Of a stretch of 64,000 bases of DNA, positions 8,528-26,043 are shown one piece after another. Each line of letters starts with the position of its first letter. Within the stretch, counting starts at the first letter, position 1. Both the position numbers and the translations under genes were made by a program. Origin of the DNA: Bdellovibrio sp. (lineage in GTDB: Bacteria; Bdellovibrionota; Bacteriovoracia; Bacteriovoracales; Bacteriovoracaceae); NCBI GenBank assembly GCA_016187935.1, contig JACPIU010000019.1, positions 1-64,000 of the forward strand. Direction: 5' to 3'. The notes under the pieces were generated by a model, which saw only the letters and a list, made by a program, of their open reading frames with translations, was not told the origin of the DNA and searched no databases.

Positions 8528-8992
8528 CTATTTTTTATACTTGAAATCGGGGGAAAGTTTACTAATTGACGTCTTTGCTCGGGGATCTAACTTCGATTGG
8601 TCCTTTTCTTCTTTTGGGTCATTGTTAAGTGGCGACTGTTTAAGCAATTCTTTGATCTCTGCATCGATCTCGGCCTTTTTGTGAACCCAATCACCACCAT
8701 CACCACTTTTCTTCATTTTTCCCAGCGCCAAAGCACGGGCCAGTACATCGTCAATTTTATCAATATGGTTCTGGTATACATCCAACTTTTTGCGATTTTT
8801 CCACAGGTCGCGCCACTTAAAAGGCAGACGTTTAAACAAAAACATAGTCACAACAAGGAAAAATAAAATGAAACCGGCCAACATTTTCACAGCAATACTG
8901 CCATTAACGATATCATCTAAGGAAGGAGTTTCCGCCAAAGCGTCCACTGCTCGGAATAAAAAAATGGCAACAGTAAAGATCCTCATGATCAT
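8528..8992 (-). CDS. Small exported membrane protein of unknown function
   Basis: I do not recognise a family. From the chosen ATG at 8992 (154 residues) it has a hydrophobic signal-like segment ending ALA-E, then a second transmembrane helix at about residues 36-56, followed by a charged, Lys-rich, probably cytoplasmic helical tail with a low-complexity end. A TTG at 9022 could add ten residues, but the ATG has an AGG seven bases upstream and begins directly at the signal segment. It is upstream of the GH26/GDPD pair on the same strand (43-base gap) and divergent from the HD-GYP gene. Confidence 0.6.
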   Translation of the reverse strand: MIMRIFTVAIFLFRAVDALAETPSLDDIVNGSIAVKMLAGFILFFLVVTMFLFKRLPFKWRDLWKNRKKLDVYQNHIDKIDDVLARALALGKMKKSGDGGDWVHKKAEIDAEIKELLKQSPLNNDPKEEKDQSKLDPRAKTSISKLSPDFKYKK

Positions 8993-9037
8993 AGCATGCC
9001 TGGAGAATTCAAAAAAGGCCAATTGACAAATACTCTG

Positions 9038-9065
9038 TTGAAATTATTACTCTTTCTTTTATAAT
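9038..9065 (+). promoter_or_regulatory. Sigma70-like promoter for the HD-GYP gene
   Basis: TTGAAA (9038-9043) and TATAAT (9060-9065) are separated by 16 bases and lie 34 bases before the TTG start at 9100. This is the clearest housekeeping-type promoter match I found in the window. Confidence 0.55.
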
Positions 9066-9099
9066 TGAATAAAGAATCTCACTTTGACAGGGGAACATT

Positions 9100-10080
9100 T
9101 TGGAAAAAAGTCCCAATACAAAAAATGAAATCGAATATGTTTCTTTTCCTATTTTAAAGATCTTCCCCGAACAAGCGCTGCCAGGTGAGCTATACTTATT
9201 TCTCAACGGGCATTTTGTTAAATATAAGACTAAAGAAGACAGCATCTCTCAACAAAAATTTGAACTTTTTGTCCTGCAAAAAGTTCAATATGTCTTCATA
9301 TCCAAAGAGGACGCCCCGGCCTATAAAGCATGGTCAGAACGATTATCGGGCAAAGTGAAGGAAGAATTAATTTCAGGGGTTGGCCAAGACAATGTTGGCG
9401 TCGTCGAACAACATCTGGAAATCCGCGATGAATACTTAAGCTTTGTATCCAAAGAAGTGACCGAAGAAAGCGTCAAAGAGGTACTCACAAAAACTCGCAA
9501 TTTTATTCAAACTATCAAGGAAAAGCACACTGCAGATAAATTTACCGCAAAACTTTTAAGCTACTCCCAACATGTTGCCGACCATTCAACCAACGTTGCC
9601 AATCTTTCTGTTTTTCTGGCGCTTAATACTGGCTATTCCCAACAGCTTATATTGGAAAACATTTATCTGGGCGGCCTTCTCCATGATTTTGGTAAAACAA
9701 AAATTGATGCAAAAATTCTGGAGGAACCGCCCACTTCAAAAAAATATCAAACCGCGATTCGCAAGCATCCCGAACTCGGTAAAACGTCACTTCTGCTTGA
9801 TAGCGGTTTTTCCGATGAAATTTTACGGATTGTGGGAGAACATCACGAAAGACAAGACGGAACAGGTTATCCAAAGGGTCTCAAAGGCAATAAAATATAC
9901 GATCTGACCAAAATTATCTCGATTGCCAATGTCTTTGATAATCTCGTCATGAGTACCCAAGGGGAAATCAAAGGTCGGCAAATTAAGGCCTTTCGGTTTC
10001 TGGAAAGTGACCAAGGCAAGATGTTTGACCCGAAAATTCTTGGTAAATGTCTTAGAGCACTCGAACGAGTTATCATTTAA
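9100..10080 (+). CDS. HD-GYP domain protein (probable cyclic-di-GMP phosphodiesterase)
   Basis: A probable c-di-GMP-degrading phosphodiesterase. Residues about 15-85 form an N-terminal domain of unknown role, followed by a linker helix and an HD-GYP domain at about 140-320. The metal-binding HD pair is at 195-196 (LLHDFGKT) and the GYP signature lies in HHERQDGTGYP at 248-258. There is no receiver domain or membrane segment, so it is likely cytoplasmic. The start is TTG at 9100, supported by AGGGGA seven bases upstream and a good promoter; no ATG fits better. It stands alone as a transcription unit between a divergent promoter and a terminator. Confidence 0.88.
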   Translation: MEKSPNTKNEIEYVSFPILKIFPEQALPGELYLFLNGHFVKYKTKEDSISQQKFELFVLQKVQYVFISKEDAPAYKAWSERLSGKVKEELISGVGQDNVGVVEQHLEIRDEYLSFVSKEVTEESVKEVLTKTRNFIQTIKEKHTADKFTAKLLSYSQHVADHSTNVANLSVFLALNTGYSQQLILENIYLGGLLHDFGKTKIDAKILEEPPTSKKYQTAIRKHPELGKTSLLLDSGFSDEILRIVGEHHERQDGTGYPKGLKGNKIYDLTKIISIANVFDNLVMSTQGEIKGRQIKAFRFLESDQGKMFDPKILGKCLRALERVII

Positions 10081-10136
10081 TTGTGCATCAATAAAAGAGG
10101 ATATTCCTCTCTTGTTAGCGCACAATTTATTTTTTA
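10081..10136 (+). terminator. Nested stem-loop terminator after the HD-GYP gene
   Basis: TTGTGC (10081) pairs with GCACAA (10120-10125), enclosing a second perfect 6-bp hairpin AGAGGA/TCCTCT at 10096-10110. A T-rich tract follows. It sits directly after the HD-GYP stop. Confidence 0.55.
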
Positions 10137-10181
10137 CATATCGGCCTTGCTAAATTGTAATGCCTAAGCTAAAGCACACGC

Positions 10182-11399
10182 ATGTATCCACTATTTGATC
10201 GAATTCGTTATTTTTGGCAATTTTTCTGCTATAACTGTAGAGTTAACACCCGTGCAAAGCGCTGGGTTGCAGAGTATAAGAATTACTTGGCGGGAAATGA
10301 GGAAAAACCACCTTTGCCCGCGGTGGTCCAGCTAACCGCAACTGAACACTGTAATTTACGCTGTCCGATGTGTAATCAGTGGGGAGAAAATGGTTACTTT
10401 TTAACTGGCAAAAAAGAAGCTTCCCACCTCGACGGCCAAAAGCTGATTCAATTTTTAAATCATTTTAAATCCATTAATCCGGACTTCACCTTGAGCATCC
10501 ACGGGGGGGAACCTTTCGCCTACAAACATATTGCCACACTTCTTGATTGGATCGAGGCAACCAAAGTTGACGTTCTTTTTACCACTAATGGCACCCTTCT
10601 CAAAAACTCAGTTGAGCGTTTGGCAAAAATTAATCGTCATGTTGCCTACTACATTTCCATTGATGGTGGTGAAGAAACCAATGACAAAATTCGCGGTCAA
10701 GGCGCCACCAGGAAAATTATTGAGCAAGTTGATTTGTTACGGCAGGCCTGCGCCAAGGCCAAAACTGGTTTACCAAAAATTATGATTAACTATTGTTTGT
10801 GTGAGCACAATCCGCAGGCCCTGGATGATGTGGAAAGTGTCGCCAGAAGATTGGGCGCATTTCTCATCAATTATAATTTCCGTTGGTATTTATCTCCTGG
10901 CAAGGGTGAAGAATATGATCAGGTTTTAATCAATGAATTCAAAGTTAAACCCACACGGGCCTGGACTGGATGGGTCACCAACAATAAATTTGAGGATATT
11001 GGCCCCGTCATAAAAAAACTCTATCAAAAAATTCACGCTTTTCGCCTCTTTCCCCCTTATGTAAATATGATTCCCAAGGGCCTAAAAGAATCAGATGCCC
11101 TCCTCTATTACCAGGACTATAATGAAATGTTTGGCATCAAGGGGTGCATCATGCCGTCATACTGGGCGCGTATTGATTCTCTTGGAAACCTGCTCTACTG
11201 CCCAGGCCATCCAGATATTCTTCCCGGCAATGTGTTCGAAAATGACTTTCGTGCCTTATATTACGGAACGGTTTCCACGCAATTGCGAAAAAAAGTTGAA
11301 AATGAACTTCTTCCCATTTGTCATCGCTGCTGTGGCCTCTATGTTTCCTACCCTGTGACCAAGAAATTGCGCGGCAACTTTTTTCCTAACCCTTCGTAA
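10182..11399 (+). CDS. Radical SAM protein with SPASM-like C-terminal cysteines
   Basis: A radical S-adenosylmethionine enzyme. The [4Fe-4S] motif C-x3-C-x2-C is at Cys 57, 61 and 64 (CNLRCPMC); HGGEPF near 107 and FTTNG near 133 are the usual SAM-binding elements. Additional Cys at 322, 340, 380, 383 and 384 form a SPASM-type cluster region, as in peptide- and sugar-modifying enzymes. The substrate cannot be inferred from the sequence. The 405-residue length fits. The start codon has no clear ribosome site. The end overlaps the convergent LPG-synthase-type gene by 14 bases. Confidence 0.85.
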   Translation: MYPLFDRIRYFWQFFCYNCRVNTRAKRWVAEYKNYLAGNEEKPPLPAVVQLTATEHCNLRCPMCNQWGENGYFLTGKKEASHLDGQKLIQFLNHFKSINPDFTLSIHGGEPFAYKHIATLLDWIEATKVDVLFTTNGTLLKNSVERLAKINRHVAYYISIDGGEETNDKIRGQGATRKIIEQVDLLRQACAKAKTGLPKIMINYCLCEHNPQALDDVESVARRLGAFLINYNFRWYLSPGKGEEYDQVLINEFKVKPTRAWTGWVTNNKFEDIGPVIKKLYQKIHAFRLFPPYVNMIPKGLKESDALLYYQDYNEMFGIKGCIMPSYWARIDSLGNLLYCPGHPDILPGNVFENDFRALYYGTVSTQLRKKVENELLPICHRCCGLYVSYPVTKKLRGNFFPNPS

Positions 11400-17659: not shown

Positions 17660-18541
17660 ATGCAAATGTGCTATCGTTTTTTGAGGGCCTTACTCCCCCC
17701 CCTTGTGTTCTGGGCCCCCGTAATCCTCTTGGCAGCAGAGATTGATCCTGTCAGGATTGCCTTCATCGATACTGAATTTTGCTTAGAGCATCTTATCGTC
17801 CCCCAAGGCCTGCAGAAAAAAATCGGCCTTAATTCCCATCTGCCATCATCAAGTTTGTGCAAAACACAAAAATGGGGCATGAAAGTCCCCCCTGAGAGAT
17901 GGGCGCACGGCCATCACGTCTTGAAAACTTTCTTGCAAGAGTTATCCAACCACCCCCCCAGTGATTTCGTTATTGAGATCCATGCTTATAATATCTTTGG
18001 GCCGGAAGGCACCTATACTCTTAAGGATTGGGAAGAGATGTTTAAGGTGTTAATGAAAAATCCTCCCGATTTCATCATCATGGCATCCACCTACTACGGC
18101 CCGGAGCACTCCTCGCTGGAACAAAGTGTGAAAAATTTTCAAGGAATTTTTCTGCTGGCGGCAGGAGCGAGGGAGGAGACCATCCAAAATCCGGCCTTTT
18201 TATGGCCACAATCATCTAAAACTGCCCACAAAATCCTCTTCGGTAGCTTTATCGAGTATCAAACGCAGGGACAAAAAGGGGCTTCCCAGGGTCAACTCGA
18301 CACTACTTTATTTGAACAAAACGGCCTTGATTTTGTTGTGAAGGCCCCCAAGAACTCCATTTATCCTACAGGATCAAGTTATGCCGTTGCTCGCGCCGCC
18401 GGTTTTCTTCTGTCCCGTTGTTTAAAAAGGCAAAAGGCCCTTCTCGCTGAGTGTATCGGAGGTTTCAGTCATAAAACGTTACTCAAATCACCACAATGGC
18501 GTACCGGAAAAATTTACAAGGCCATCACTTTTCATAAGTAA
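17660..18541 (+). CDS. Divergent subtilase-like exported protein
   Basis: A 293-residue exported protein (signal peptide 1 to about 26, ending LAA-E) with the order of a subtilisin-type (S8) catalytic triad. Asp 37 is in IAFIDTEF (compare VIDTG), His 83 in AHGHHV (compare HGTHV) and Ser 240 in GSSYAVARAAG (compare GTSMAAPHVAG). The oxyanion Asn expected in AAGN is replaced: AAGA with Ala 170. There is no propeptide. The triad order and contexts make homology to S8 plausible, but the altered oxyanion hole and the shortness suggest a specialised or inactive member. The start follows a repeat-rich intergenic region; no convincing ribosome site was found. Confidence 0.6.
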   Translation: MQMCYRFLRALLPPLVFWAPVILLAAEIDPVRIAFIDTEFCLEHLIVPQGLQKKIGLNSHLPSSSLCKTQKWGMKVPPERWAHGHHVLKTFLQELSNHPPSDFVIEIHAYNIFGPEGTYTLKDWEEMFKVLMKNPPDFIIMASTYYGPEHSSLEQSVKNFQGIFLLAAGAREETIQNPAFLWPQSSKTAHKILFGSFIEYQTQGQKGASQGQLDTTLFEQNGLDFVVKAPKNSIYPTGSSYAVARAAGFLLSRCLKRQKALLAECIGGFSHKTLLKSPQWRTGKIYKAITFHK

Positions 18542-18676: not shown

Positions 18677-21600
18677 ATGGCATTTCTGAAGCTGAATCTG
18701 TTGAGTAGAAAATTAATGGGATCACTGTTAAGTGCCACCATTTTAATGTCATTAGCGGTCGACCCAGTTCTGGCCGATACTCCTCGACCACCATGGGCAA
18801 AAGAATTTTATGGGCCGGTTACATTCCGTTTGGTGGATGATCCCGTGTACGCCGAGAAACAAAATATTTTGGGTGCCCTGCTGACTGAACTCAACACAAC
18901 TAAGGCCTTGCACCAAAGCAAAGTACAATCCTTAGAACAAAAGAATAAGGCCAAAACTCAGAAAATCGCTGAGCTAGATCAAACCAAAAAATCTCTTGAA
19001 GAGAAAAATGATAAATTGGAAAAGAACATTGCCGAAATTCAGACCGATACAGCGCTTATTACTTCTTATGATAATGCCATCGCCGCCGCCACTTCAAACA
19101 TTAGAGTTAAGGAAAACGAACTTATTACACTTAATAACACACTCAATCCTCTTAAGGATCAATTCGCGGAGGCCACCGCCGCCAAAAATGAGAAGCAGGC
19201 CGCCTATGATGCCGCCTTGGCCGCCTGCCAGCAAAGTGGTAACACGGCCTGCAGTGATGAATCGACAGTCATTGTGGCCAAACATCACCTTGATCGCGCT
19301 AAAGAACGTTTACAGTATTTAGGGGAGCAAGTGGCCCACTTTGACCAATTGGTACGCGATGCTCAAACCTCGATTGCCAATTCACAATCCACTATTGCCA
19401 CTTCTCGTACAGAAAAAGAACAAAAACAGGCCCGCATTCAAACTCTCACAACCGAAAATACTAAATTGCGCGAAGAAATTCCCGTCCTGATCACTAAAGT
19501 GGGAGACCTTACACGCGACCTAGACAAATTGACCGCCGAAGTGACAACTCTCTCTCAAGATGTCACACGCATCGGAAATATTGTTACCCAACAAGAAGTC
19601 GGATATGCCAATGAGCAAAATCTTTTTAAACGTCTTGAAGACCAGTTAATTGAAGATGTGCTCTCCGCTAACCGTATGGGTTATGCCAAATCCCGCAGTG
19701 ACGGCCAGCGCGACGGGATTGAAGTCGCCCGCGTCGTGGGTGATGAACTGGGCGAACGCAACGGCAAAGCTGAAGGCGAAAGCCGGGGTTCAGTCGACGG
19801 CCGCGCTCGTGAATATGCCCGTGGAAAAGAACAAGGTGAAAAAGAGGGTGCCATTAAAGGACGTGAAGATGGTCTGGCCCAAGGTGAGCAACGCGGTAGA
19901 GAAGAAGGCCATCAATTGGCCGGAGCTAAAGAAGGAGAAGCGGCCGGATTGGCCCGTGCTGAAAGCTCAGATGCCGCTCAAGTTGGTCGCCGCCTCGGCC
20001 TGCAAGAAGGAGTGCAACGTGCCCGCGTGGAAGGTGAACGCCGCGGACGTGGTGCCGGTGAAGCAGAGGCCATTCAACAAATGGAAAATCGCCAGATTAG
20101 AAACGAAGTCATTCGCGGACCATTTGCCGGAACTTTTGCCAATAAATTAAATCTTCCGGCCTTCCCTGGAGCCCGAGGAACATATCGCAATGATGAGTCA
20201 GGACATTCACGTCGCATCATTCGTTTGGCCTATATTGCCGGCTACTCGGTTGGTTATGACCGTGCTGCCGAAGAAGTTTATTACGCCAATATTGAGTCCA
20301 TCTATACTGAATCCTATAATCGCTTCTATCAGACAACTTACCAGGCGGCGGTCAATCGTGCTTACCCCGAGGCCTTCCGCCAAGGAAAAGACGAACAGTT
20401 CCGCAAGGCCTGGCAACGTGAATTTGATATCTACTATCGTCAGACTTTTGAGGCCTCACGCGCCGATGCGCTGGCCCGCCCAGATCGTAATTCTGCCGTC
20501 TTCAAGAATGCCTACAAAGCAAAGGAAACCGCTACTTTTGAAGCACGCTATCTGCAAATTCGTAATTCAAGTTTAGAAGCAGCTGCGCGTGAAACTTTTA
20601 ACCAAAACATTGCCGCGGAAACAGAGAAGGCCCGTCAACGCCGCCTACAAGAGGTAAATGAAATCTATCAACGTTTCGCTGTGGTTAAATTTCAGTCTGC
20701 TAACATCACTGATATCGGTAACGAACTCGTCGGCATCAATGATAACGTCTATATGCCGGGAGAATCCATCGCTCACAATGTGACAATCACTAACTACTCA
20801 GATGTTGCTGCCAAAGGTCTTACCTTGACAAATGCTCAAGGTGAAAAATTTGTGTTGGAGGACGTACCTGCTCGCGCCACCGTAACCGTTTTAGGTGCCG
20901 GAAAATCGGTTCTTGATGCCAATGCCAGACTTGGTAAGGCCTACAATATTACAGCAGGGCTAAAAATGGATCTCACCAGCTCTGAAACTCAGATTCAGGG
21001 CCGTCACTTTGAATCTGCCGCCCAGAATCTTTTAAAGGGACAGATCACAAGTCAGGTAACAGCACAGTTGCCAGTGCAAGTTACCGGACTCACTCTCTCA
21101 AATCCTTTAATCTTAAATCACCCCTCTCAAGTGGTAACTCAACTGCAGAACATTTCTTCTCGCACCATTAGTGGGCCTATTACCATAAACCTTGATTCAT
21201 CTGCCGGGCGTACCATCTTTACTCAGACCTACGCCAATCTGGATACACTGGCCGCCCAAGCCACTTTGAATCAGGCGGAAGTCTTAATTAATCGTCCTGA
21301 AATGATCTTCCAAGAATTGGATTTCAGCTTAGCACTCTACAAAAATGGAGTGTTGCTTGGTCGTATCAGCAATGTCGCTCGGGATTACGTCAAGGCCCCT
21401 TATGTTGAGCGTTCGGGTCGCCCTGTCGTTGTGCTGAATTCTACTGGCCGTTTCTCTCGTGAATTCTTCAAAGATATTGCCGGTGATCTTGGTGGCATCG
21501 ATCAAGTATCCATTCTTGATCTTGCCGGAGGGGCCTTCCACCAGAACATTCTCGAGCGTCAACTTGCCGGTAAAACGGTTTACGTGATCAATGACCGCTC

Positions 21601-22396
21601 AAATTCACTTGTTGCTCTTCTGGATAAGGCCTTGAATACCAAAAACCTCATGTTTGCCTTCGTCTCCAATGAAACCAATCGTGGAGCTTTGGATGAGGCC
21701 CAAGGACGTCTTGAACACTTGGCCAATGCCACCAAAATTCCTTTTGATCTCGACGGACAGGTTGTGCAAATCGTCTCCAGTTCACCCGAAGTTGTGACTG
21801 ACTTAAGCGTGACAACTTCGCTTATTGAAGTTGATATTCAGAATCTTGAGGTCGTTTCCAAGTTGGAAAACTTACTCAAATTGACCAATGATGAACTGTT
21901 AAGCGAAATCGCTCGCAAGGTGACTGCTGATGGTTATTTCAGTGCCAATAGTGAAACTAAAATGCTCTTAAAAGTTGCCGGTCTCCGTAACTTGGAAGAG
22001 GCCGAAACCCTGGCCGATGTCTATGACCGTAGCTTAGGAGCACGCCATTTCCTATTCTTTAAACTACGCGACAAAAGTTACCTCAAACGAGTCAAGGAAG
22101 ATGCGAATCTATTCGTCAATAAGATGAAGGCAAAGCTTGATTCCGCACCTCAAAACGAGAAACTGGCCGTTGCCCTCGCCGCTTATGCAGTTCAAAATGC
22201 AAGTGAAGAGGCACTTAATGGCGAATTTGGCTTCTCCAAGGCCATTCGTAAAATGCGCAAGGCCTACGAAAAATCGTTTGACGGTCTGCTTGATAAGGCC
22301 GAAAAAGTTCTTAAGTCCCAGTTAAAAAATATCAAGAAACCTCATAAAAAGGCAGCGGAACAGGCCAATCTCTTTAGACCTTTTCCTGCACGCTAG
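18677..22396 (+). CDS. Giant exported coiled-coil protein with four-residue periodic repeats
   Basis: 1239 residues; I know no family for it. The signal peptide (about 1-34) ends VLA-D. Residues about 60-320 are a long coiled coil. Residues 343-411 place Gly at every fourth position with only two exceptions, in a charged Glu/Arg/Lys/Gln background resembling the GxxxG helix of FliH but much longer. Residues 519-591 continue the same period with Tyr, Phe or Trp at most fourth positions, resuming at 609-625. From about 665 the sequence becomes beta-rich (Ig-like, with NVTITNYSD), followed by alpha/beta and helical C-terminal parts. The ATG at 18677 has AAGGAG six bases upstream; a GTG at 18659 lacks one. 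A strong terminator follows. The composition suggests a structural envelope or surface filament protein (inference). Confidence 0.8.
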   Translation: MAFLKLNLLSRKLMGSLLSATILMSLAVDPVLADTPRPPWAKEFYGPVTFRLVDDPVYAEKQNILGALLTELNTTKALHQSKVQSLEQKNKAKTQKIAELDQTKKSLEEKNDKLEKNIAEIQTDTALITSYDNAIAAATSNIRVKENELITLNNTLNPLKDQFAEATAAKNEKQAAYDAALAACQQSGNTACSDESTVIVAKHHLDRAKERLQYLGEQVAHFDQLVRDAQTSIANSQSTIATSRTEKEQKQARIQTLTTENTKLREEIPVLITKVGDLTRDLDKLTAEVTTLSQDVTRIGNIVTQQEVGYANEQNLFKRLEDQLIEDVLSANRMGYAKSRSDGQRDGIEVARVVGDELGERNGKAEGESRGSVDGRAREYARGKEQGEKEGAIKGREDGLAQGEQRGREEGHQLAGAKEGEAAGLARAESSDAAQVGRRLGLQEGVQRARVEGERRGRGAGEAEAIQQMENRQIRNEVIRGPFAGTFANKLNLPAFPGARGTYRNDESGHSRRIIRLAYIAGYSVGYDRAAEEVYYANIESIYTESYNRFYQTTYQAAVNRAYPEAFRQGKDEQFRKAWQREFDIYYRQTFEASRADALARPDRNSAVFKNAYKAKETATFEARYLQIRNSSLEAAARETFNQNIAAETEKARQRRLQEVNEIYQRFAVVKFQSANITDIGNELVGINDNVYMPGESIAHNVTITNYSDVAAKGLTLTNAQGEKFVLEDVPARATVTVLGAGKSVLDANARLGKAYNITAGLKMDLTSSETQIQGRHFESAAQNLLKGQITSQVTAQLPVQVTGLTLSNPLILNHPSQVVTQLQNISSRTISGPITINLDSSAGRTIFTQTYANLDTLAAQATLNQAEVLINRPEMIFQELDFSLALYKNGVLLGRISNVARDYVKAPYVERSGRPVVVLNSTGRFSREFFKDIAGDLGGIDQVSILDLAGGAFHQNILERQLAGKTVYVINDRSNSLVALLDKALNTKNLMFAFVSNETNRGALDEAQGRLEHLANATKIPFDLDGQVVQIVSSSPEVVTDLSVTTSLIEVDIQNLEVVSKLENLLKLTNDELLSEIARKVTADGYFSANSETKMLLKVAGLRNLEEAETLADVYDRSLGARHFLFFKLRDKSYLKRVKEDANLFVNKMKAKLDSAPQNEKLAVALAAYAVQNASEEALNGEFGFSKAIRKMRKAYEKSFDGLLDKAEKVLKSQLKNIKKPHKKAAEQANLFRPFPAR

Positions 22397-24795: not shown

Positions 24796-26043
24796 GTGAA
24801 AATTATCATCCCTCTAATCACCTTTTTACTACAACTCTATGGCGTTCCGGCCTTCGCCATTATTTGGAAAAATATGGACGTCAGCGTGGAAGTCTTTGCT
24901 GACAAAAAAGCATACGTGAAAGAGAAGCACGATTTTATCTTTGAAGAAGGAGATCAACGCGTGATCCTCCCCTTTCATATAGGTGAAAGACAAACCATTC
25001 ATTTCAAAAAAATCGAGTTAATCGACATCATTAAAAATAAAACTGTCCCGATCACACCTTTACCACCTCCTCCCACCAGCAAAGAAGCAAAACCTACTCC
25101 GGTGCCAGACCTCTATTACATATATTCTCCTCAAAACGTGTTAACCCTTGAGCTGCCGATCAGCGCCAGTAAGACCTATAATATCTCTATTGAATATGAA
25201 ATTTCGGAAGCACTCCAGTCCGTCAAACAGGATTTACAACTCAAATATGTCTGGGGACACCCGAGAAGAAACGGGATTATCAAATATTTTTCTTTCAATC
25301 TCACCGTCCCCAAAGACTGGAGCGTGCTTGAAGGGGCCCATCAAAATATTTTTCGCGAGAACTTGGGAGCGAAAGATCAATTTGCCACAGATTTACATCT
25401 CCGCTCGCTTGTTCCCTTGACTACCGGCCCAAAATCTCTTGTCGAGTTAGATGAAATTTATTCCTGCCAATTGGAAAGCAATTTACCCGAACAAATTTTC
25501 CGCGCCTATCTCCCCGATCTCCCTCCTTCGAAAACAGTTTTTCCTACCGTCTATCCTATGTCTTTTCGTCTGAAAGGAACTTATGATGGAACGGTTAATC
25601 TTCAAAGTGTCGGAGTCGAAAACAACATCTCTTTTTCCTTTAGCGAGGAACAACTGGCCAGTCTCGGCCAAAAAAACGTCGCTTATTTCAACGGCCGTTT
25701 TGAAACAGAGAAAGTCCGAATCACGAGTAAACTCAATGCTATTACCCATGCTATCCTCTTTGCTTCAATTAATCTCTATGCCCAAAAAGAATTGGAAACT
25801 GGCAAAACAGTTCACTTCACCAATACAGAGCCCAGTGCACCGGCAAAATTCTTTGATGTAACATCACTGGATGAATCTTTGACCATCATGGCCAATACTT
25901 TAAAAATATCACTGCGCAATCCTGTGATTACGGAAATCGAGGGCCTTAAGATGCTCACAAATGCCCCCGCAGGATTACTATCTGATAGCGATATTAGCAG
26001 TATTGCTTTTACGTTTAATTTAACTTCATGCAAGAAGATCTAG
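24796..26043 (+). CDS. Exported beta-rich protein of unknown function
   Basis: 415 residues with a signal peptide (about 1-21, ending AFA-I). The rest is soluble and predicted beta-rich, with a Pro-rich linker near residue 95 (PLPPPPTSK). The first mature 60 residues, with a strand pattern ending V-K-E-K-H-D-F-x-F, loosely recall the start of DUF2207-type proteins, but the match is weak. The GTG start at 24796 lies 4 bases after the tex stop, preceded by GAGATGAG overlapping it, so it is probably co-transcribed with tex. It converges with the LolC/E-like gene 3 bases away. Confidence 0.65.
   Translation: MKIIIPLITFLLQLYGVPAFAIIWKNMDVSVEVFADKKAYVKEKHDFIFEEGDQRVILPFHIGERQTIHFKKIELIDIIKNKTVPITPLPPPPTSKEAKPTPVPDLYYIYSPQNVLTLELPISASKTYNISIEYEISEALQSVKQDLQLKYVWGHPRRNGIIKYFSFNLTVPKDWSVLEGAHQNIFRENLGAKDQFATDLHLRSLVPLTTGPKSLVELDEIYSCQLESNLPEQIFRAYLPDLPPSKTVFPTVYPMSFRLKGTYDGTVNLQSVGVENNISFSFSEEQLASLGQKNVAYFNGRFETEKVRITSKLNAITHAILFASINLYAQKELETGKTVHFTNTEPSAPAKFFDVTSLDESLTIMANTLKISLRNPVITEIEGLKMLTNAPAGLLSDSDISSIAFTFNLTSCKKI

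Follow-up and report, generated by a model that had tools for sequence, protein, structure and literature searches.

To our knowledge, Gly and Tyr stripes of period 4 are otherwise known only as short motifs, in FliH, Yae1, and SMN. FliH/YscL proteins carry a soluble helix with an AxxxG(xxxG)m repeat, for which a contact between aromatic residues and Gly has been proposed and whose GX3 helices are thought to dimerize Gly to Gly (PMC2674601). In Yae1-Lto1, a GX3 repeat is needed for protein-protein binding (PMC4523923). The YG zipper of SMN has Tyr and Gly at period 4 in a helix pair, with the rings set against Gly (PMC8287954).

The giant protein described here resembles each of these systems in part. 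As in FliH/YscL, its Gly repeat of period 4 is soluble and predicted to be helical, but m is 2-10 in FliH and the family of the giant protein reaches 18-29 slots; FliH is also cytoplasmic, short, and devoid of a separate aromatic array, whereas the giant protein is exported and has one. The Yae1_N/deca-GX3 domain of Yae1-Lto1 shares the GX3 repeat but has ~40 residues and is eukaryotic and cytosolic. In SMN, a single short helix carries alternating Y and G, whereas here the two lie on separate long predicted helices. The antiparallel coiled-coil hairpin fold is shared with the arms of Smc, MukB, and Rad50, from which the giant protein differs in having neither ATPase nor hinge, in being exported, and in its Cys-paired tip. 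Finally, the product of the neighboring gene shares the Asp-His-Ser triad of Peptidase_S8 but is small, has mostly lost the oxyanion Asn, and is tied to the giant gene.

The type of motif is known; new are its scale, the distribution of the two arrays over different helices, its occurrence in an exported protein, and the pairing with a second gene. The giant protein represents a real, conserved exported family with a linked subtilase-like partner, of which literature searches gave no description. With up to 29 Gly and 22 aromatic repeats in one exported protein, conservation is strong enough to test continuous GxxxG geometry. The fixed subtilase-like link makes this a two-gene system open to knockout and purification, and it is present in the predatory bacterial genus Halobacteriovorax.

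Gly and aromatic arrays of the giant protein

The window, i.e., the whole stretch of DNA analyzed (64,000 nucleotides), carries on its forward strand a giant gene with an ATG at 18677 preceded by an AAGGAG ribosome-binding site. Its coding sequence (18677-22393, stop ending at 22396) specifies a product of 1239 residues. The parts of the locus are listed below with the evidence for each.

17660-18541, + strand: exported subtilase (S8)-like partner, 293 aa, triad D37/H83/S240 (linkage, alignment, profile)
18677-18778, + strand: Sec-type signal segment, residues 1-34 (read by eye from the sequence)
18842-19234, + strand: predicted outgoing coiled-coil helix, residues 56-186 (AlphaFold2, structure match to 5xg2)
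19226-19252, + strand: predicted hairpin tip with the Cys184/Cys192 pair (AlphaFold2, orthologue alignment)
19262-19666, + strand: predicted return coiled-coil helix, residues 196-330 (AlphaFold2)
19679-19909, + strand: Gly array, residues 335-411, on predicted helix 196-428 (period count, orthologue conservation, AlphaFold2, shuffles)
19922-20059, + strand: second Gly register, residues 416-424 and 437-461, predicted helix 433-470 (period count, orthologues, AlphaFold2)
20087-20212, + strand: linker 471-512, one predicted strand and a Pro-rich stretch with a conserved G-F-G-F motif (orthologue alignment, AlphaFold2)
20231-20449, + strand: aromatic array, residues 519-591, predicted helices 513-559 and 564-600 (period count, orthologues, AlphaFold2, shuffles)
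20501-20599, + strand: second aromatic register, residues 609-641, predicted helix 607-666 (orthologue conservation, AlphaFold2)
20684-20968, + strand: predicted Ig-like beta sandwich 1, residues 670-764 (AlphaFold2 C-terminal model, structure match)
21029-21388, + strand: predicted Ig-like beta sandwich 2, residues 785-904 (AlphaFold2 C-terminal model, structure match)
21425-21835, + strand: predicted alpha/beta domain, residues 917-1053 (AlphaFold2)
21848-22393, + strand: predicted helical C-terminal part with a conserved P-F at its end (orthologue alignments, AlphaFold2)

Both stripes noticed in a previous sequence-only reading of this DNA are borne out by counting. Gly fills 16 of the 18 slots at every fourth residue from 343 to 411, the exceptions being 351 (Ala) and 379 (Glu), and aromatic residues fill 15 of the 19 slots from 519 to 591. 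In a run-score test, none of 20,000 region shuffles scored as high as the real sequence, for either array. The lag-4 autocorrelation suggested by that reading was 19 versus 5.0 expected for Gly (z 7.7; residues 335-470) and had a z of 5.4 for aromatic residues (residues 500-660); a strict period, distinct from that of heptads, is likewise supported. The Gly array begins at 335 and, after a one-residue register slip, resumes at 416-424 and 437-461. The aromatic set said to resume at 609 is present (609-641), but it does not continue the same period: it is offset by two residues from the phase of 519-591 and represents a new register. The residues between the Gly slots are mostly polar or charged; the array is therefore not a membrane zipper. 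Export of the protein, also claimed earlier, is supported by the N-terminal signal-type segment, recognized by eye, and by paired Cys.

Searches of Pfam, NCBIfam, PHROG, and PDB sequences returned no match that explains the repeat, in line with the view that no known family extends across it. FliH membership was rejected, as the curated NCBIfam models scored 14.5 and 11.1 bits, far under their cut-offs of 192 and 293, and Pfam gave no FliH match. Membership in Yae1_N (PF09811) was discarded because residues 326-664 gave no match up to E 0.5, and that in the SMN YG family because Tyr and Gly lie on separate predicted helices instead of being interdigitated on one, and no homology was seen. PDB sequence matches to the array (pyridoxal kinase, an ARID protein, and OCM3) are simple low-complexity GX3 tracts, not homologues, and the same search found no deposited structure of such a Gly/aromatic array. 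For a head ATPase domain, there was no Pfam or NCBIfam match above cut-off, Smc-type matches being limited to the coiled coil.

Conservation in Bdellovibrionota

The source genome belongs to Bacteriovoracaceae; the named record nearest to it is Bdellovibrionales GWA2_49_15 (89% identity), with Halobacteriovorax, Bacteriovorax, and Bacteriovoracaceae records further off. By hand count, 49 of the 129 Bacteriovoracaceae genomes yielded a complete or nearly complete orthologue in a profile search. Gly and aromatic slots are conserved in the 27 orthologues aligned, whose identity goes down to 19% (mostly 19-33%). Fourteen array Gly residues, from position 359 to position 461, are invariant, and most other Gly slots are 85-96% Gly. 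Slots 523, 527, 535, 543, 547, 583, 609, 613, and 641 are aromatic (Tyr, Phe, Trp, or His) in 27/27 sequences. The strongest slots, when pooled, are 97% Gly and ~95% aromatic; the three residues between them vary and are mostly polar.

Conservation of the period, which the sequence-only reading had left to homologue searches, extends to distant homologues elsewhere in Bdellovibrionota, which are stricter (at best, 28/29 Gly and 20/22 aromatic slots). Homologues from other families keep the order of coiled coil, Gly array, linker, and aromatic array, and the better matches among them also keep the Ig-like part. Over 20 proteins, the lengths of the Gly and aromatic arrays co-vary (rho 0.58, p 0.007; related proteins mixed, kinship uncorrected). 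Many weak matches in the phylum, restricted to the coiled coil, proved to be SMC proteins and were excluded from the counts. No relatives of the giant protein were found in the plasmids and viral contigs searched.

A distant paralogous group (loci L035, L036, L037, L120, L123, and L136) comprises exported proteins of 1000-1300 aa that start with LPDEI.Y after the signal and have a longer coiled coil. Their Gly array (13-16 slots) and aromatic array (14-15 slots) are both shorter than in the giant-protein family, and in some cases the genes are arranged in tandem (L136). The loci checked showed no S8-like neighbor.

Predicted architecture

AlphaFold2 modeling of residues 40-1239 with 27 sequences reached a pLDDT of 83 and a pTM of 0.45, which makes the relative placement of the parts uncertain; the C-terminal part alone reached 89 and 0.75, respectively. 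Helices are predicted at 56-186, 196-428, 433-470, 513-559, 564-600, and 607-666, with both arrays helical at a pLDDT of mostly 80-90. The modeled chain breaks at 429-432, at 471-512 (a strand and a Pro-rich linker), and near the conserved Pro motifs at 560-564 and 601-606. The Gly array is therefore predicted to lie on the returning helix of a hairpin, apart from the kinked helices that carry the aromatic array. Given these breaks, a single, very long helix in which Gly packing gives way to aromatic packing is not supported, and that reading was rejected. A coiled coil is indeed predicted where a 260-residue one had been read, but as two helices (56-186 and 196 onward) with a short Cys-flanked loop.

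Residues 61-313 (22-274 of the model) match the antiparallel Smc arm 5xg2 in VIA-align (Z 14.9, 237 residues aligned, rmsd 5.7 Å). Cys184 and Cys192, at the predicted tip, are either both present or both absent in each of the 27 orthologues. The best match of the two sandwiches together was to the FXIII barrels (Z 10.3, rmsd 3.8 Å, 191 aligned), and sandwich 2 also matches 7e1y (Z 10.3, 101 aligned, rmsd 2.3 Å). A transglutaminase identity was rejected, since the matches cover just the two C-terminal barrels, i.e., generic Ig-like sandwiches. Because the sandwiches filled the match list, no separate fold match was obtained for the alpha/beta domain or for the helical C-terminal part.

The subtilase-like partner

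Of 27 loci, 26 have an S8-like gene (~290 aa) adjoining the giant gene, and the last is cut by a contig end; the neighborhood otherwise changes around the two genes. It usually lies downstream, mostly overlapping the giant gene or within 31 bases of it, and is upstream in the source genus, with a gap of 135 bases in the window. By hand counts uncorrected for kinship, 47 of the 49 giant-gene genomes of the family also have the S8-like gene, and one genome has the S8-like gene only. S8-like genes also adjoin distant homologues in four other families: f6 (L105), f8 (L107 and L114), f14 (L104), and f24 (L106, where the match does not reach the Pfam cut-off).

The partner profile matches subtilisin DY at 1.1e-4. 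PF00082 does not match the partner in the window; on the partners of the homologues it scores 73.8, 61.2, 36.6, and 23.6 bits against a cut-off of 21.8, with one at 14.9. The oxyanion-hole Asn is kept in 1 and replaced in 24 of the 25 aligned partners (alignment read by eye), and the partner may therefore not cut at all. It is possible, if somewhat doubtful, that the neighbor is a dead subtilase fold acting as a chaperone or binding subunit of the giant protein, which would be compatible with either zipper model discussed below. Along with the Asn replacement, its tight linkage to and co-occurrence with the giant gene argue for such a role, as does the apparent absence, judged by eye, of the usual His-Gly motif from the compact f14 and f24 partners. 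Against it speak the invariance of Asp37, His83, and Ser240 in 25/25 aligned partners and the 61-74 bits that partners beside f8 homologues score as S8.

The partner and its orthologues often end in Thr-Phe or Thr-Tyr and have invariant Cys 41, 254, and 265. In genome G190, the gene beside the homologue encodes not a subtilase but a 248-aa Gln_deamidase_2 (glutaminase) protein (L116:9202-9945). An exported-looking 415-aa protein with no Pfam match (window 24796-26043) is conserved beside the giant gene only within the genus.

A possible Gly-to-aromatic zipper

With 3.6 residues per alpha-helical turn, a period of 4.0 is calculated to form a right-handed stripe with ~36-39 residues per supercoil turn. 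Two such helices at 6.0-6.5 Å would cross at ~41-44 degrees, versus ~20 degrees, left-handed, for heptads. A right-handed, close crossing at ~40 degrees is the usual geometry of GxxxG helix pairs such as that of glycophorin A; the array therefore looks like a GxxxG contact continued over 70-110 residues. At 8.5-10 Å, the ring-to-ring contact distance, the calculated crossing is 54-70 degrees, so that aromatic-on-Gly contacts are favored and aromatic-aromatic contacts disfavored, in keeping with the arrangement in SMN (PMC8287954) and the one proposed for FliH (PMC2674601).

We tentatively propose, as a plausible reading still short of an even chance, that this exported and mostly fibrous Bdellovibrionota family works by Gly-to-aromatic zippering and acts with its linked subtilase-like exported protein. 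The N-terminal half would form an antiparallel coiled-coil hairpin ~200 Å long, its tip closed by the Cys pair and its return helix running on into the Gly array. Given a pitch that equals that of a continuous GxxxG-type contact, the Gly stripe should take a second helix very close to it in a right-handed zipper. We infer that its natural ligand may be the aromatic stripe, either from the same chain or from an adjacent copy, whose rings would pack against the bare backbone of the Gly residues in the manner of the SMN YG zipper. Contact within the chain would set the fold; contact between chains would join copies into a fiber. The Ig-like, alpha/beta, and helical C-terminal parts might form the end that binds or anchors the protein; the S8-like partner might process, release, or hold the C-terminal part of the giant protein. 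Alternatively, the residues in the aromatic slots might contact one another or a different protein. With regard to location, a filament or scaffold in the envelope, as previously suggested, is a reasonable guess. The most extended form of the proposal, which we consider unlikely, is a hitherto undescribed mode of fiber construction: the Gly helix of one copy would take the aromatic helix of the next in a long right-handed zipper, with the subtilase-like partner controlling assembly or release of an envelope filament throughout Bdellovibrionota.

Homotypic zippers, i.e., a parallel dimer in which Gly pairs with Gly between copies as in FliH or glycophorin and the aromatics pack among themselves, without Gly-aromatic contact, appear rather unlikely. 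The computed geometry fits a Gly-Gly pair very well, and the dimerization thought to occur in FliH (PMC2674601) is a precedent for it. However, the crossing angle implied by ring-ring contact would be hard to hold over 70 residues, and the co-variation of array lengths also counts against this reading.

Carbohydrate-binding surfaces often display regularly spaced rings. The aromatic stripe might thus be a docking rail for a glycan, peptidoglycan, or a partner protein, the Gly stripe just allowing close helices inside the hairpin; the Ig-like domains that come after the arrays and the exported look of the orthologues would suit such a role. We nevertheless hold it improbable, since the aromatic slots are conserved as tightly as buried residues, many at 100 percent, and no carbohydrate-binding family was matched. 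That the arrays reflect low-complexity drift and serve no structural purpose is scarcely credible: simple GX3 tracts do occur in eukaryote proteins, but invariant slots separated by freely varying residues in orthologues down to 19 percent identity already contradict it.

Other sequences noted in the source genome

The source genome contains a partial second copy of the 3' end of the giant gene (G000:C6:72404-72894; L039:8408-8890), located behind an unrelated reading frame and with 81-88% DNA identity to window positions 21869-22388. It also encodes two tandem predicted lipoproteins (L122:7393-8835 and 8851-10335, on G000:C8) that consist largely of G-Y-x-x repeats, with Gly in 35/39 and 29/30 and in 31/34 and 26/30 slots. 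Tyr lies beside Gly in them much as in the SMN YG box, and Pfam Yae1_N scores 51 bits. A similar pair is present in genome G002 (L038).
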